From assembly GCA_015490155.1 (NCBI GenBank), contig WFYI01000110.1, forward strand, positions 1-43,535: a DNA stretch of 43,535 nt. The letters run 5' to 3'. Position numbers and translations under genes: made by a program. Below the pieces are notes generated by a model that searched no databases, was not told the DNA's origin, and saw only the letters and a list, made by a program, of their open reading frames with translations. Each line of letters starts with the position of its first letter. Position 1 is the first letter of the stretch. Source of the stretch: Aquificaceae bacterium. Lineage in GTDB: Bacteria > Aquificota > Aquificia > Aquificales > Aquificaceae. Positions 37,570 through 43,535 of the stretch are shown here, piece by piece.

Positions 37570-37986
37570 ATGCGACGTGGCTTATTCCTTGCCTTAGCAA
37601 TTCTTTTGTCCGTAGCTTTCGGACAGGCTGTATGGGTCTCCAACTTCGATAGGGGAGTCCAGCTTGCTAAGGAGAAGGGTAAGAATCTACTTATATACTT
37701 TTCCAGTGACCACTGCCCATACTGTTGGCAGATGGAAAACTACGTTCTGGTAGACCCCGAGGTTGAGAAATACATAAGCGACAAGTTCATAATAGTTTCC
37801 ATAGATGTAGAGGATATGCCTGAAAGCGTTGAGGAAAAGTTTGACGTGTTCGGCACACCTTACATAGTTTTTTACGACCCTAAGAGGGATAAAGTTATCT
37901 CCGAGCTGTTTGGAAGCCGTGAGGCTGAAGATTTTATAGTTATACTTAAGAAAATATGCAAAAAATCCAACCTAAGGAGGTGTTGA
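37570..37986 (+). CDS. Secreted thioredoxin of the sox cluster (SoxW-like)
   Basis: The 138-residue protein has a signal peptide (about 1-19) and a thioredoxin fold with a CPYC motif (49-52), followed by the conserved cis-Pro strand (FGTPYIVFYD). Two more cysteines are near the C-terminus. Leading a sox operon, it most likely acts like SoxW/SoxS, keeping the SoxY cysteine reduced in the periplasm. It is the first gene of the cluster and soxY follows after 1 base. Confidence 0.87.
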   Translation: MRRGLFLALAILLSVAFGQAVWVSNFDRGVQLAKEKGKNLLIYFSSDHCPYCWQMENYVLVDPEVEKYISDKFIIVSIDVEDMPESVEEKFDVFGTPYIVFYDPKRDKVISELFGSREAEDFIVILKKICKKSNLRRC

Positions 37987-37987
37987 G

Positions 37988-38440
37988 ATGCTCTCAAGGA
38001 GAGACCTATTTAAGGTAGCAGGGGTCGGGGCTGCAACTCTGTTGGTAGCTCCGGGAGTTGTAGGGCAGTCCTTTGCTGCAAAAAAGAGCTTGGACGATGC
38101 CCTTAAAGAGAAGTTGGGGGTTACCCAAAAGGATTTAAAGTCTTCGGACTTGATAAAGGTAAAAGCGCCCACCATAGCCGAGTCCGGAGCTAACGTTCCC
38201 GTTGAGGTGAGTGCAAATATTCCCGCTCAGGAAGTTGAATCGCTGTTTATATTCATCGACAAGAACCCCAACCCTTACGTGGCACAGGTCGATTTCACAC
38301 CTGCCAACGGAGAGGTATACTTTGCCACGAGGGTTAAGATGGGTAAGACTTCTCCCGTAAGGGCGGTGGTTAAGATGAAGGACGGCTCTTACCTTACGGC
38401 ATTCAAAGAGGTTAAAGTAACCGTAGGTGGTTGCGGTTAA
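37988..38440 (+). CDS. soxY: SoxY, sulfur carrier subunit
   Basis: SoxY carries the sulfur intermediate on the Cys of its flexible C-terminal arm. The 150-residue protein ends VTVGGCG, with the carrier Cys at 149. It starts with a twin-arginine signal (RRDLFKV then a hydrophobic stretch), so it is exported folded, probably with SoxZ. GGAGGTG before the ATG is a strong ribosome site. Confidence 0.97.
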   Translation: MLSRRDLFKVAGVGAATLLVAPGVVGQSFAAKKSLDDALKEKLGVTQKDLKSSDLIKVKAPTIAESGANVPVEVSANIPAQEVESLFIFIDKNPNPYVAQVDFTPANGEVYFATRVKMGKTSPVRAVVKMKDGSYLTAFKEVKVTVGGCG

Positions 38441-38486: not shown

Positions 38487-38819
38487 ATGGCATCAGTAGG
38501 AAGAGCTATTGTTAGGGTTCCGAGGAAGATTTCAAAGGGACAGGCTTTCAAGGTGCAGATGGTTATAACGCACCCTATGGAGACCGGTCTCAGGAAGGAC
38601 AAGAAGACCGGAAAGCTGATACCTGCTCACTACATAACACATATAGACTTTTATCTCAACGACCAGCTGGTTACGAAGATTTACTCTTCTCCGGGTATAA
38701 GTAAGAACCCTTACTTCGCAATTAAGATGAAGGCAGACCAGTCAGGTACGCTGAAGGTTGTCTACGCTGACAACAAGGGAGGCAAGTGGGAAAAGAGCGT
38801 CAAGCTTAACGTAGCTTAA
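38487..38819 (+). CDS. soxZ: SoxZ, partner of SoxY
   Basis: SoxZ binds SoxY to make the SoxYZ carrier. The 110-residue protein has no signal peptide, as usual, because it travels with the Tat-exported SoxY. The conserved VQMVITHPMETGLRKD region is present. A 46-base gap with GGGAGG precedes the ATG; no terminator or promoter is clear there. Confidence 0.96.
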   Translation: MASVGRAIVRVPRKISKGQAFKVQMVITHPMETGLRKDKKTGKLIPAHYITHIDFYLNDQLVTKIYSSPGISKNPYFAIKMKADQSGTLKVVYADNKGGKWEKSVKLNVA

Positions 38820-38831
38820 GGAGGGGTAGAC

Positions 38832-39647
38832 ATGAAAAGTAAGAAGTTCCTTATAGGTTTGGCGTTGGTTGGGGGTGTCGCTGTAGGTTTTTCTGCAGAT
38901 GTTCCTACTCCTGACCAAGTTAAGCAGCTCAAGGAGATGGGAATACTTCCCAGTGATGTTATAGTTGACGAAGGTAACGATTACTTCCACAACCTTAAAG
39001 GTCCTAACGGCAAGACCTGTGCTTCCTGTCACGGACAAGACGGAGCAAAGCTCGTAGGTGCATACGCCAAGATGCCCAGATACTACAAAGACATAGACAA
39101 GGTTGCCGATATAGATATCAGGATTAAAGCCTGTATGACCAAGTACATGGGCTTTCCCAAGGACAAGAAGTTTAAGAAGAAGTTCACCAAAAAGTACAGG
39201 GTTCCCCTTGCTGGATACGTTGCCACACTCAGCAACGGCATGAAGATAAACGTAACCCTCGACGACCCTCAAGAGAAGGAGATGTACGAGTTCGGTAAAA
39301 AGCTTTGGTATCAGAGAGTCGGCGGTAGAGACCTGTCCTGTGCAATATGCCACGAGGTATATGCCGGCTACAGGATAAGGCTCCAGAAGCTGGGTGCTCC
39401 CGTTAGGGACAAGCTGTATGCCCACTGGCCCGCCTACAGGTTCTCAAAGGATAAGCTCTGGACTATGGAGGACAGGATAAGGGGCTGCTACAAGAGTTAC
39501 TTCCTGTACTTAGGTAAGAAGTGGGACAAGAAGAAGGACTGGGTAAAGAAGCCCCCTTACTACATGAAGGAGCTGGTAGCCCTTGAGCTGTTTATGAAAA
39601 AGGCAGCTAACGGAGCAACAGTAGAGGTTCCCGGTCTACTAAGGTAA
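38832..39647 (+). CDS. soxA: SoxA, diheme cytochrome c
   Basis: SoxA with SoxX joins thiosulfate to the SoxY cysteine oxidatively. The 271-residue protein has a signal peptide (cleavage near Phe-Ser-Ala at 22), two heme motifs CASCH (63-67) and CAICH (170-174), and Cys at 101 and 219 as candidate axial ligands, the latter in the active-site context RGCYKS. Both halves are alike, as expected for the diheme type. A ribosome site GGAGGGG precedes the ATG. Confidence 0.97.
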   Translation: MKSKKFLIGLALVGGVAVGFSADVPTPDQVKQLKEMGILPSDVIVDEGNDYFHNLKGPNGKTCASCHGQDGAKLVGAYAKMPRYYKDIDKVADIDIRIKACMTKYMGFPKDKKFKKKFTKKYRVPLAGYVATLSNGMKINVTLDDPQEKEMYEFGKKLWYQRVGGRDLSCAICHEVYAGYRIRLQKLGAPVRDKLYAHWPAYRFSKDKLWTMEDRIRGCYKSYFLYLGKKWDKKKDWVKKPPYYMKELVALELFMKKAANGATVEVPGLLR

Positions 39648-39660
39648 AGGAGGGGTGATA

Positions 39661-40236
39661 ATGAAGAAGGTACTTTTTACAGGTTTGGTCGTTGGACTTG
39701 GAGCGATAGTGGCTTGTCAGGCACCTGCCTCTAAGGCAGAGCAAAAGGCTGAAAAGCCTGCTAAGAAGATGTCTAAAGAGGAGAAGTTCAGAGCCGCTTT
39801 GGCTAAGCAGGACAAGTATCAGAAAGCCTGCTCAAATGAAAAGCAGCTTATTCCGGAAGGTATATCCATAGAACAGTTTAAGAAGGACATGCTCGCCACC
39901 ATAAAGTATCCCGAGGGCGGAGTGGTAGGCGACTGGAAGAAGGGAGAGAAGCTCTTTGGAGACCCTAAAAAGGGTGGTAAAGGCTTGGGTAACTGTTACG
40001 CTTGTCACTGCGGAGACCCCAGCATAATAGCTTGCGGAAACATAGGACCTTCCCTTACGGGATACGGTAAGAGCGGAGCAGACCCTAAGGTTACCTACCA
40101 GAGGATATACAACCCTTGGTCTGTAAACCCGTGTAGTGCTATGTTCAGGTTTGGGGTTCATGGAATACTGTCTCCCGAGCAAATCGCTCACATTACCGCA
40201 TTTCTCCACGACCCCAACTCACCTATAAACAAATAA
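39661..40236 (+). CDS. soxX: SoxX, monoheme cytochrome c lipoprotein
   Basis: SoxX partners SoxA. The 191-residue protein has one heme motif CYACH (112-116) and the likely axial Met at 161 (MFRFGVHGILSPEQI). The start is the ATG at 39661, after GGAGGGG. The signal peptide ends in IVAC (Cys 19), a good lipobox, so the protein is probably anchored by lipid rather than free. It has further cysteines at 57, 117, 125 and 158, which could form disulfides. A Lys/Ala-rich tether follows the Cys. Confidence 0.94.
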   Translation: MKKVLFTGLVVGLGAIVACQAPASKAEQKAEKPAKKMSKEEKFRAALAKQDKYQKACSNEKQLIPEGISIEQFKKDMLATIKYPEGGVVGDWKKGEKLFGDPKKGGKGLGNCYACHCGDPSIIACGNIGPSLTGYGKSGADPKVTYQRIYNPWSVNPCSAMFRFGVHGILSPEQIAHITAFLHDPNSPINK

Positions 40237-40335: not shown

Positions 40336-42087
40336 ATGCACATGACGAGAAGGGATTTCTTAGAGCTGGCGTTGGTAACGGGAGCCTTTCTAACGGCTAA
40401 CCCGGTTCAGGCACTTGCCAAGATGTCTTACGATGACATCATGAGGTTCAAGCCCGTAGGGAATGTAACCCTACTGTTTACCACAGACCTTCACGCTCAC
40501 CTTGAGCCTCTATACTTTGCCGAGCCTATGAACCTCGTAGCTCCCAAAAAGCTGATGGGCAAACCCGGGTACATAACGGGTAAGGAGTTTTTGAAGTATT
40601 ACAAGATAGCTCCCGGCACCCTTGAGGCTTACTTTACCAGCTGTTTAGACTTTCCCAAGCTGGCACACAAGTTCGGCAAGATGGGCGGTGCGGCTCACAT
40701 CACCACCGTAATAAAGAACGTGATAGCCGAGAGGGGAAGGGATAAGGTTCTGGTAATGGACGGGGGAGATACTTGGGTCACCTCTGCCATAGGAACCTTT
40801 ACGAACGGCAAATCTGTGGTTGATTGGATGACCCTTACGGGCTTTGACCTGATGGTCGCCCACTGGGACTTTACCTTCGGAAAAGAGATATTCATGCAGA
40901 GGATTGAAGACCTTGAAAAAGGTGGATGTGAGTTCATAACCCAGAACGTGGTGGATGAGCTTTTTGGAGACCTCATATTTAAACCCTACTCTATAAGAGA
41001 GGTGGGCGGTGCAAAGCTGGGAATAATAGGAAATTCCTTCCCCTACACGCCCATAGCTAACCCCAAACAGTTCGTTGAGGGTTGGAGCTTCGGCGTGCGT
41101 GAGGAACAGATGCAGCAGTTCGTTGACGAGCTAAGGCAGAAACACAAGGTTGATGCTGTAATACTTCTGTCTCACGACGGACTGCCCCTTGACATGGCTC
41201 TTGCGGAGAAGGTCAAGGGTATAGACGTGATAATATCCGGACACACCCACGATGTCACACCTACGGCAGTGAGGGTAGGCAAGACTCTCATAGTCATAGC
41301 CGGCTCCCACGGTAAGTTCGTTGGAAGGTTAGACCTTGACGTGCAAAAGGGCAAGATAAGGGACTTTAAGTTCAAGCTCTATCCTGTTGCTTCTAACCTA
41401 ATACCAGCGGACAAAGAGGCTCAGAAGTTGGTAGAGAAGTATAAAAAGGAAGTGACTAAGAAGTACAAGCTCGACGAGGTTATAGGCGAAGCCGAGGTTA
41501 TGCTCTACAAGAGGGATACCTTCTTCTCCACGTGGGATTGGCTTGTGGGAGAAGCGATTAGCGACTACTACGGAGGGCTTGACATAGTCACCTCTCCCGG
41601 ATACAGGTGGGGAACTACCGTTCTGCCCGGACAGAAGATAACCAGAGACCACGTTTACGACTACACGGCTATAACCTATCCGCTCGTTTACGTGATGAAG
41701 AGAACAGGAGAGCAGCTCCTTACCGTTTGGGAGGACGTTGCGGACAACGTGTTCAACCCTGACCCCTTCTACCAGCAGGGCGGAGACATGTCAAGGATGT
41801 GGAACGTTGAGTACTCCATAGAGGTAAACGGACCCCAGTACAACAGGATAAGGGAAGTAAAAATAGGCGGTAAACCTCTCAAGAAGGACAAGGAGTACAT
41901 GATGGCGGTTTACGGCGGACCTCCTCCCCCTCCGGACATGGTTCACCCTGACTATAAGCCCGTTCCCGTTTACGACATTCTGATTGACTACATAAAGAAG
42001 AAGGGTAAAATTAAGGTTAGGACGGAACCTAATGTGAAGGTGCTTGACGCGCCTTACAAGGTTTACGACCAGTGCTACGGAGGTTGA
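40336..42087 (+). CDS. soxB: SoxB, sulfate thiohydrolase
   Basis: SoxB hydrolyses the sulfone group from SoxY and releases sulfate in the periplasm. The 583-residue protein has a Tat-like start (TRRDFLE) and the dimetal 5'-nucleotidase-type motifs DLHAH (Asp 51, His 53), MDGGDTW (about 141-147) and GHTHD (about 293), plus a C-terminal 5'-nucleotidase domain. An AGGAGG site lies 8 bases before the ATG. The upstream terminator means soxB may be transcribed partly on its own, or by readthrough. Confidence 0.97.
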   Translation: MHMTRRDFLELALVTGAFLTANPVQALAKMSYDDIMRFKPVGNVTLLFTTDLHAHLEPLYFAEPMNLVAPKKLMGKPGYITGKEFLKYYKIAPGTLEAYFTSCLDFPKLAHKFGKMGGAAHITTVIKNVIAERGRDKVLVMDGGDTWVTSAIGTFTNGKSVVDWMTLTGFDLMVAHWDFTFGKEIFMQRIEDLEKGGCEFITQNVVDELFGDLIFKPYSIREVGGAKLGIIGNSFPYTPIANPKQFVEGWSFGVREEQMQQFVDELRQKHKVDAVILLSHDGLPLDMALAEKVKGIDVIISGHTHDVTPTAVRVGKTLIVIAGSHGKFVGRLDLDVQKGKIRDFKFKLYPVASNLIPADKEAQKLVEKYKKEVTKKYKLDEVIGEAEVMLYKRDTFFSTWDWLVGEAISDYYGGLDIVTSPGYRWGTTVLPGQKITRDHVYDYTAITYPLVYVMKRTGEQLLTVWEDVADNVFNPDPFYQQGGDMSRMWNVEYSIEVNGPQYNRIREVKIGGKPLKKDKEYMMAVYGGPPPPPDMVHPDYKPVPVYDILIDYIKKKGKIKVRTEPNVKVLDAPYKVYDQCYGG

Positions 42088-42088
42088 T

Positions 42089-42580
42089 ATGAGAGGCATC
42101 CTTTTTATATTCGGGGGACTCCTCGTAGTGGGAGTCCTCGTTTTCTTTATATACAAGAACTACGCCAACCCCTTTAAGCTCATGTTCTACACTCAAACGG
42201 TTCAGGGTAAGAGCTTTGATAAGGTGATAGAGGAGCTTTCCGATTCCTTAAACAAAAGCGGTTTAAAACTTATCAGAGTTCTTCCCCTCTCCAAGGCTCT
42301 AAAGGCTAGGGGTGTTGAGGACTTCCCCAACTACAGCATGGTGTTAGCCTGCGACGTGGAAGGTAAGAAAGAGCTTCTCTTAAAGGTTCCTTTCCTGAGC
42401 AACCTTATACCCTGCAGTCTTGCGGTTTACGACAACAAGGAAGGTGGAGTCTCCATAACCGCCCTCAAAGAGACCTTGTTTATCCATCAGTATAAACCCC
42501 AGCTGAGTGAGGAGGACATAAAGCTCATAAAGGACACTTACGCCAAGCTTAGAGAGGTGATAAAAGGAGTTGCTAAATGA
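42089..42580 (+). CDS. Membrane-anchored DUF302 protein
   Basis: The 163-residue protein has one N-terminal membrane segment (about 3-22) and a DUF302 domain. Two cysteines, 88 and 109, are spaced C-x20-C. I take the ATG at 42089 because it gives a normal membrane anchor; an upstream start at 42044 lies inside soxB. The start follows soxB by 1 base and the stop overlaps the next DUF302 gene by 4 bases. DUF302 genes are often found with sulfur-oxidation genes, but no function is agreed. The domain part is probably in the periplasm. Confidence 0.8.
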   Translation: MRGILFIFGGLLVVGVLVFFIYKNYANPFKLMFYTQTVQGKSFDKVIEELSDSLNKSGLKLIRVLPLSKALKARGVEDFPNYSMVLACDVEGKKELLLKVPFLSNLIPCSLAVYDNKEGGVSITALKETLFIHQYKPQLSEEDIKLIKDTYAKLREVIKGVAK

Positions 42581-43020
42581 GAAAGGTTTTGCTAACTTTG
42601 CTGGTGGGTTTGAGCCTTACCTTTGCCGTTGACTTTAAGTTTGAATACGAAGAGAAGATAGAGGGAATGGACTTTGAGGACGTAAAGCTCCTGCTTAAGA
42701 CTGCCCTTGACGGCAGGAATATGAACGTCTTGGACGTAATAGACATATCTACGGAATCGCCGAGGTTTTCCGTGTTTCTGGTTTGCAACCTCACCTATGC
42801 CCAGAACATACTCCCTGACATGCCCGAGTTCGGCACCATAGCACCCTGTAGGATTTACCTTTACGAGGACAAAGACGGGAATGTTATCGTAGGCTACATA
42901 AACATACCTACGCTCCTCAAAATATACAAAAAGTTTCTGAACCAAGAGGCGGTCAAGGTTTTCAAAGTCGCCGACGACGACATAAAGGCGGCTTTAAAGG
43001 AAGCCAAGGGTGAGTTTTAG
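42577..43020 (+). CDS. Secreted DUF302 protein
   Basis: The 147-residue protein has a signal peptide (about 1-17) and a second, diverged DUF302 domain. Its cysteines, 70 and 91, have the same C-x20-C spacing as the neighbouring membrane-anchored DUF302 protein. The pair therefore looks like a duplicated set, one anchored and one soluble, that may form a heteromer in the periplasm. It overlaps the previous and the next genes, so all three are translationally coupled. Function unknown. Confidence 0.8.
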   Translation: MRKVLLTLLVGLSLTFAVDFKFEYEEKIEGMDFEDVKLLLKTALDGRNMNVLDVIDISTESPRFSVFLVCNLTYAQNILPDMPEFGTIAPCRIYLYEDKDGNVIVGYINIPTLLKIYKKFLNQEAVKVFKVADDDIKAALKEAKGEF

Positions 43021-43535
43021 GGTACTACTTCTCTTCTTTCTGGCTTCGGGGTACCTCTTAGCCTCGGAATACCCGAAGCATGTAGGAGAAACCCTCAAGA
43101 AGCTGGGAGACAACATATACGGGGTCTTCGGCGTTTACGAGCAGGTGAGTCCTGAGAACAGGGGTTTTATATCAAACGCCTATTTCGTAATTACCTCCGA
43201 AGGCGTTCTGGTCGTAGACGTTCTTAGCACCTACAAGCTGGGCAAAGAGCTTGTGGAAGCTATAAGGAAAACCACCGATAAACCTATAAAGCTTGCGGTA
43301 ATTACCCACTACCACACAGACCACTTTTACGGCATAAAGGCTTTGAAAGAGGCGGGAGCCATAACCGTAGCCCACGAGGACGCTTACGAATACCTGTCCC
43401 AACCCTCAAGCGAGGCGTTTCTCAAATCAAGGCAGAGGCTCTTGGGCGAGCACATGGAAGGCACGGGCTTAGAGCCTCCTCACATAGCCATAGACAAGGG
43501 CATGACCGTAAACCTCGGAGGGGTTCTCTTTGAGG
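43010..43535 (+). CDS. Metallo-beta-lactamase-fold hydrolase of the sox cluster, partial
   Basis: The start is GTG at 43010, overlapping the previous gene by 11 bases. The first 175 residues are visible. A signal peptide (about 1-19) is followed by the MBL fold and the zinc motif HYHTDH (His 100, His 102, Asp 104, His 105). MBL proteins called SoxH occur in other sox clusters, and persulfide dioxygenases share the fold, so sulfur chemistry is likely. The C-terminus is beyond the window. Confidence 0.85.
   Translation, partial: MSFRVLLLFFLASGYLLASEYPKHVGETLKKLGDNIYGVFGVYEQVSPENRGFISNAYFVITSEGVLVVDVLSTYKLGKELVEAIRKTTDKPIKLAVITHYHTDHFYGIKALKEAGAITVAHEDAYEYLSQPSSEAFLKSRQRLLGEHMEGTGLEPPHIAIDKGMTVNLGGVLFE

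Follow-up and report, generated by a model that had tools for sequence, protein, structure and literature searches.

A pair of exported DUF302 proteins encoded directly after soxB in Aquificota as a candidate sulfane-sulfur relay of the truncated Sox system

Directly after soxB, the sox operon of an Aquificaceae bacterium encodes two adjacent DUF302 proteins, here called D1 and D2. We propose, with a probability of roughly 0.45, that they act as a sulfane-sulfur relay of the cell envelope that unloads SoxYZ. The Sox systems of Aquificota have been described as exclusively truncated, with the onward sulfur route "still a mystery" (PMC10451225), and the DUF302 pair is a concrete candidate for this exit of sulfane sulfur from SoxYZ without SoxCD. 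If true, the proposal would provide the first working role for the widespread uncharacterized DUF302 family, for which we found no prior work giving a function in the literature searched (subscription papers were outside the search). An association between DUF302 and sox genes has already been published for Acidithiobacillia (PMC5037610) and Sulfitobacter (PMC11034169), with the role unknown there. What is new is the paired or fused form of DUF302 and its position behind soxB at every Aquificota locus examined; within the same literature, we found no report of either, nor of the movable second cysteine described below.

The window, i.e., the whole stretch of 43,535 nucleotides analyzed, is contig C110 from an Aquificaceae MAG of a heat-loving bacterium, which is 96.5% complete. 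The operon runs in the order soxW-like, soxY, soxZ, soxA, soxX, soxB, D1, D2, and a gene for a metallo-beta-lactamase-fold (MBL) protein, with the models for soxY, soxZ, soxA, soxX, and soxB matched above their cut-offs:

37570..37986, + strand, SoxW-like exported thioredoxin, opening the sox operon (Pfam Thioredoxin_7, E 7.5e-17)
37988..38440, + strand, soxY (TIGR04488, 156 bits)
38487..38819, + strand, soxZ (TIGR04490, 116 bits)
38832..39647, + strand, soxA (TIGR04484, 213 bits)
39655..40236, + strand, soxX with a GTG start, an ATG at 39661 being possible (TIGR04485, 97 bits)
40336..42087, + strand, soxB (TIGR04486, 771 bits)
42089..42580, + strand, DUF302-1 (D1), membrane-anchored (PF03625, 42.5 bits)
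42350..42352, + strand, codon of D1 C88, first Cys of C-x20-C (conserved in 37/37 D1 proteins and fused N halves)
42413..42415, + strand, codon of D1 C109, second Cys (conserved in the same 37/37)
42577..43020, + strand, DUF302-2 (D2), exported (PF03625, 44 bits)
42784..42786, + strand, codon of D2 C70, first Cys (conserved in 34/36 D2 proteins and fused C halves)
42847..42849, + strand, codon of D2 C91, second Cys (conserved in 34/36; genus g11 lacks it along with C70)
43010..43535, + strand, SoxH-like exported MBL hydrolase, an optional partner, cut by the contig end

The ATG of D1 at 42089 follows the soxB stop at 42087 without overlap if this ATG is the start. D1 and D2 overlap by 4 bp (ATGA, 42577-42580), and D2 overlaps the MBL gene by 11 bp (43010-43020). 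The preliminary description, made from the letters alone, had reported two adjacent DUF302 genes after soxB, one anchored and one exported, both with C-x20-C cysteines and coupled by overlap to a metallo-hydrolase with an HYHTDH motif; the coordinates, the family matches, and the motif bear this out. The position of the SoxW-like gene is kept across nearly all related sox loci. In a sister MAG (L004), an opposite-strand gene follows the MBL gene, so that the sox operon ends with the MBL gene there. Some members of genus g4 (L098/G028, L099/G029) carry two soxA genes in tandem. The contig end of the window (43305-43535) is 91.8% identical to positions 1-231 of a second contig from this MAG (L152, G000:C118), which carries the remainder of an MBL gene. 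Because of this match, the MAG probably mixes two strains. With an identity of only 91.8% over 231 bp, C118 was rejected as the missing part of the window gene; it is probably a strain variant.

Both D1 and D2 lie well above the curated PF03625 (DUF302) cut-off of 23 bits. The N-terminus of D1 is a long hydrophobic stretch with no obvious cleavage site, modeled as a single helix of residues 2-24, and D2 begins with a typical signal peptide. The two proteins share 24% identity over 127 aligned residues. We modeled both structures from four-row alignments containing the window and sister-MAG sequences only. Each model matches the TT1751-like structures 1q9u and 1j3m with a probability of 1.00, and the D1 model superimposes on 1q9u with a TM-score of 0.84 by target length. 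The DUF302 fold is also present in PDB 7tj1 from Brucella, which is titled fluoride transporter CrcB; this title looks mis-assigned.

We compared the window with 60 sox loci of related genomes, giving 61 loci from 16 genera. By BLAST, the next same-strand gene after soxB encodes a DUF302 protein at 60 of the 61 loci, mostly overlapping soxB with a median gap of -4 bp. The remaining locus (L094) carries a contig-end fragment matching the DUF302 protein of L092, so that DUF302 is the immediate neighbor of soxB in 61/61 loci, and its membership in the sox operon, as first described, is well founded. The phylogenetic profile called for in the preliminary description points the same way: DUF302 is present in 87/87 Aquificota genomes with a SoxB match vs. 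8/49 without one (Fisher p 4e-27, not corrected for descent), where two low-scoring non-SoxB matches were excluded and the DUF302 count takes in non-sox types. In genus g5, the complete genome G030 has neither SoxB nor DUF302, and its four relatives carry both.

Genera g1, g2, g3, and g11 have a gene each for D1 and D2; in genera g4, g7, g9, and g10 the two are found as a single protein of about 290-305 residues with four cysteines. In a quick tree of 128 DUF302 domains with several weak forks, D1 groups with the N-terminal halves of the fused proteins (SH-aLRT 98), and D2 falls with their C-terminal halves, together with the C domains of Hydrogenothermaceae and g5 (support 81-83). D1 is the orthologue of the N-terminal half and D2 that of the C-terminal half. 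The fused orthologues elsewhere constitute a Rosetta-stone case, from which we take D1 and D2 to form one unit. Hydrogenothermaceae have a single DUF302 gene adjoining soxB, whose product is mostly a lipoprotein by its N-terminus; several of them encode a second, exported DUF302-like protein lacking cysteines at least two genes further on (hhalign probability 95%, E 3.7e-8), which scores below the Pfam cut-off. A porin-like gene (PF07396 in L104, 9368-10639) follows the soxB-linked DUF302 gene in Hydrogenothermaceae sox operons, and porin-like reading frames also lie near soxB in Sulfurovum mangrovi.

Both cysteines of C-x20-C, C88/C109 in D1 and C70/C91 in D2, are retained in nearly all Aquificaceae orthologues (37/37 D1-type and 34/36 D2-type domains), the conservation on which the preliminary description had made its reading depend. 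Among the 129 DUF302 domains of the sox-linked set, 102 keep both cysteines, 9 have neither, and 18 have the second one moved; none has an orphan cysteine. The moved cysteines belong to 18 of the 20 Hydrogenothermaceae proteins, which keep the first and place the second in C-x18-C (10 proteins) or C-x4-C (8 proteins). Thus, within this set, the first cysteine is invariant wherever cysteines occur, and the second is either kept or relocated. In both models the first cysteine is located at a strand-helix junction, where model confidence is modest (pLDDT about 64-73). The pattern suggests a reactive first cysteine and a movable second one. Both cysteines are lost jointly in the first domain of g5 and the second domain of g11, and Sulfurovum also has one domain without them, which indicates that only one active site is needed. 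The joint losses in g5 and g11 argue against an obligatory cysteine-to-cysteine exchange between the two domains. Of the exchange pair suggested earlier from matched cysteine spacing, the pair itself is upheld by the fused orthologues. The spacing had to be abandoned as evidence, and C-x20-C does not mark out the pair, because the motif occurs throughout DUF302: in both crystal structures, in cytosolic paralogues of the same phylum, and in six of seven plasmid DUF302 proteins checked, the seventh having x22 spacing.

The same cysteines could be read differently. The pair may be a thiol-disulfide or assembly factor that keeps the carrier cysteine of SoxY reduced or assists the folding or docking of SoxB and SoxYZ; its own cysteines would then form a disulfide of redox or structural kind and take no part in carrying sulfur. 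We consider this the foremost competitor of the relay, although on balance improbable. A second cysteine that is relocated yet kept in the sox-linked set is what one expects of a disulfide, the persistence of cysteine-less partner domains would allow a binding role without chemistry, and a SoxW-like thioredoxin heads the same operon. That very thioredoxin, however, already offers a reductant, cytosolic DUF302 proteins with the same cysteines make a purely structural disulfide unlikely, and the DsrE and rhodanese neighbors described below would be left unexplained. We give very little credence to a third reading, in which the proteins are polythionate enzymes, e.g., trithionate hydrolases. This was proposed for the sox-associated DUF302 of Acidithiobacillia from size and distribution (PMC5037610), but mass similarity and occurrence are its whole basis, and we recognized no conserved hydrolase-type residues besides the cysteine pair.

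The pathway setting is that of a truncated Sox system. The Aquificaceae MAG has SoxXAYZB and no SoxC, and no SoxC match above the cut-off was obtained in 136 Aquificota genomes, in agreement with the published account of the phylum (PMC10451225). Contig C7 of the same genome carries genes that match the CCG-domain, 4Fe-4S, flavoprotein, DsrE, and GcvH/lipoate-binding families and thereby have the composition of an sHdr cluster. Neither this genome nor the sister MAG yielded a YeeE/YedE transporter. Near DUF302, genus g2 (including L073) encodes a secreted two-domain rhodanese, and Sulfurihydrogenibium-like genera encode a periplasmic DsrE.

To the observed parts of the relay reading, i.e., operon linkage, pairing, fold, cysteine conservation, a phylum without SoxCD, and sHdr in the genome, we add by inference the dimerization, the persulfide chemistry, the direction of transfer, SoxYZ as the donor, and the acceptor. 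D1 and D2 would each supply one half of a periplasmic two-domain unit, tethered to the inner membrane via D1 and produced together with the truncated system (SoxXAYZB, no SoxCD). SoxB would release sulfate and leave the sulfane sulfur on SoxY, from where the first cysteine (C88/C70, at the N-terminus of a helix) in one or both domains would accept it as a persulfide, to be resolved or stabilized by the second. The sulfur would then be handed to the next acceptor, which in some relatives may be a periplasmic DsrE or a rhodanese, and would finally be oxidized by sHdr in the cytoplasm. The adjoining SoxH could serve as an optional hydrolase clearing SoxY. The more specific claim, that truncated Sox systems have in this pair their missing acceptor of sulfane sulfur, replacing SoxCD and passing sulfur towards sHdr, we hold to be rather doubtful.

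Several observations count against the relay. One domain of the pair lacks cysteines in g5, g11, and Sulfurovum. Single DUF302 proteins accompany complete Sox systems in Ruegeria and in Sulfitobacter (PMC11034169), and in such systems there is no need to unload SoxYZ. A membrane-anchored non-sox DUF302 protein of G092 (L145:5610-6119) has the first cysteine only; its gene adjoins that of a multi-span membrane protein, in a complete genome without soxB. Finally, DUF302 proteins encoded beside copper genes have the same cysteine pair.

The last point raises the possibility of soft-metal binding, e.g., of Cu(I) by two thiolates, as an envelope copper buffer or for delivery to an oxidase. We surveyed DUF302 outside Aquificota in a small plasmid sample, hand-picked for variety, whose proportions therefore mean little. 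Meiothermus, Phaeobacter, A. caldus, and Peribacillus have non-sox DUF302 genes next to those for multicopper oxidases and for copper or heavy-metal P-type ATPases, and DUF302 has been reported within a metal-resistance cluster (PMC7760498). The non-sox genes of the sample are often accompanied by TusA, DsrE, rhodanese, TauE, and YeeE genes, with sulfur-transfer genes adjoining in Halocatena, Halobacterium, Cohnella, Cytobacillus, and Bradyrhizobium; sulfur contexts outnumber copper contexts in this hand-picked sample, and some plasmid DUF302 genes adjoin neither kind. In Methylosinus, the order is soxB-DsrE-DsrE-DUF302. A published study notes a DUF302 gene similar to one from the sqr operon of Synechocystis (PMC5061849). 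For the sox-linked proteins we judge metal binding unlikely, more so than the redox or assembly role: their linkage is to soxB, and no copper genes are present among the genes examined after soxB at the 61 loci. Evidence of DUF302 mostly outside sulfur oxidizers had been named beforehand as counting against a sulfur role. This is the case for DUF302 as a whole (Enterococcus, Rhodococcus, Legionella, and others), and it does not apply to the sox-linked subfamily.

The MBL protein of the window has the HYHTDH motif and stops at residue 175 owing to the contig end. Its counterpart in the sister MAG has the full length of 324 residues with the HxHxDH/H/D/H motif intact, and shares 28% identity over 326 residues with the second sox MBL protein of Paracoccus ferrooxidans; among named proteins, those of the SoxH type are its nearest relatives. 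Location in a sox operon and an intact metal motif are thus SoxH traits found in the MBL protein. We use the name SoxH-like because the sister-MAG protein scores 175.6 bits with TIGR04559, below the cut-off of 280, and the TIGR04559 and TIGR04558 models describe quinoprotein-linked relatives. SoxH has been known from sox clusters before: soxH1 of Sulfurovum indicum is upregulated with thiosulfate (PMC10045233), and the function of SoxH has been discussed as unknown or SoxY-clearing (PMC11237559). The hydrolase of the supposedly uncharacterized module is therefore present, as described, but it is a relative of a known sox protein.

The preliminary description had D1 and D2 feed this enzyme, i.e., act as dedicated sulfur donors to the SoxH-like protein. 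The overlap of D2 with the MBL gene would fit, as would an MBL gene beside DUF302 at 31 of the 61 loci and a SoxH-like MBL gene near DUF302 in Sulfurovum as well. The other 30 loci, however, have no MBL gene beside DUF302. Whole genera lack any homologue at E<=1e-20, and none was obtained in complete genomes of g5, of G051, and of several g18 members. We discarded the MBL protein as an obligatory partner of DUF302 on these grounds, and regard a dedicated donor role as quite improbable, only slightly less so than a polythionate enzyme.

Compared with known systems, the SoxH-like proteins of Paracoccus and Ruegeria (L129:19103-20041, L126:19147-20091) have NENGQGHA in place of HxHxDH, whereas the Aquificaceae MBL protein and its relatives in Aquificota and Sulfurovum retain HxHxDH; by their sequences, SoxH of alphaproteobacteria may be something other than a metallo-hydrolase. 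A SoxH-like MBL, a thioredoxin, and DsrE are found near sox both in the soxH1-soxW-dsrE module of Sulfurovum (PMC10045233) and on a plasmid of S. mangrovi, which carries, near soxB, genes for a SoxH-like MBL, a thioredoxin-like protein, DsrE, a tandem DUF302, and DsrE. The tandem resembles the pair in the window, but the Sulfurovum DUF302 gene is flanked by DsrE genes, which are absent from the locus in the window. The fold of D1 and D2 is shared with 1j3m (TT1751 from Thermus) and 1q9u (Geobacillus), with best-match TM-scores of 0.75-0.84 by target length, as is C-x20-C; those structures are of cytosolic, single-domain proteins, in contrast to two exported, diverged copies coupled to soxB. 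The DUF302 gene of Acidithiobacillia is a single gene between soxA and soxB (PMC5037610), and that of Sulfitobacter a single gene between soxF and soxH (PMC11034169), whereas Aquificaceae carry a DUF302 pair or fused tandem directly after soxB.
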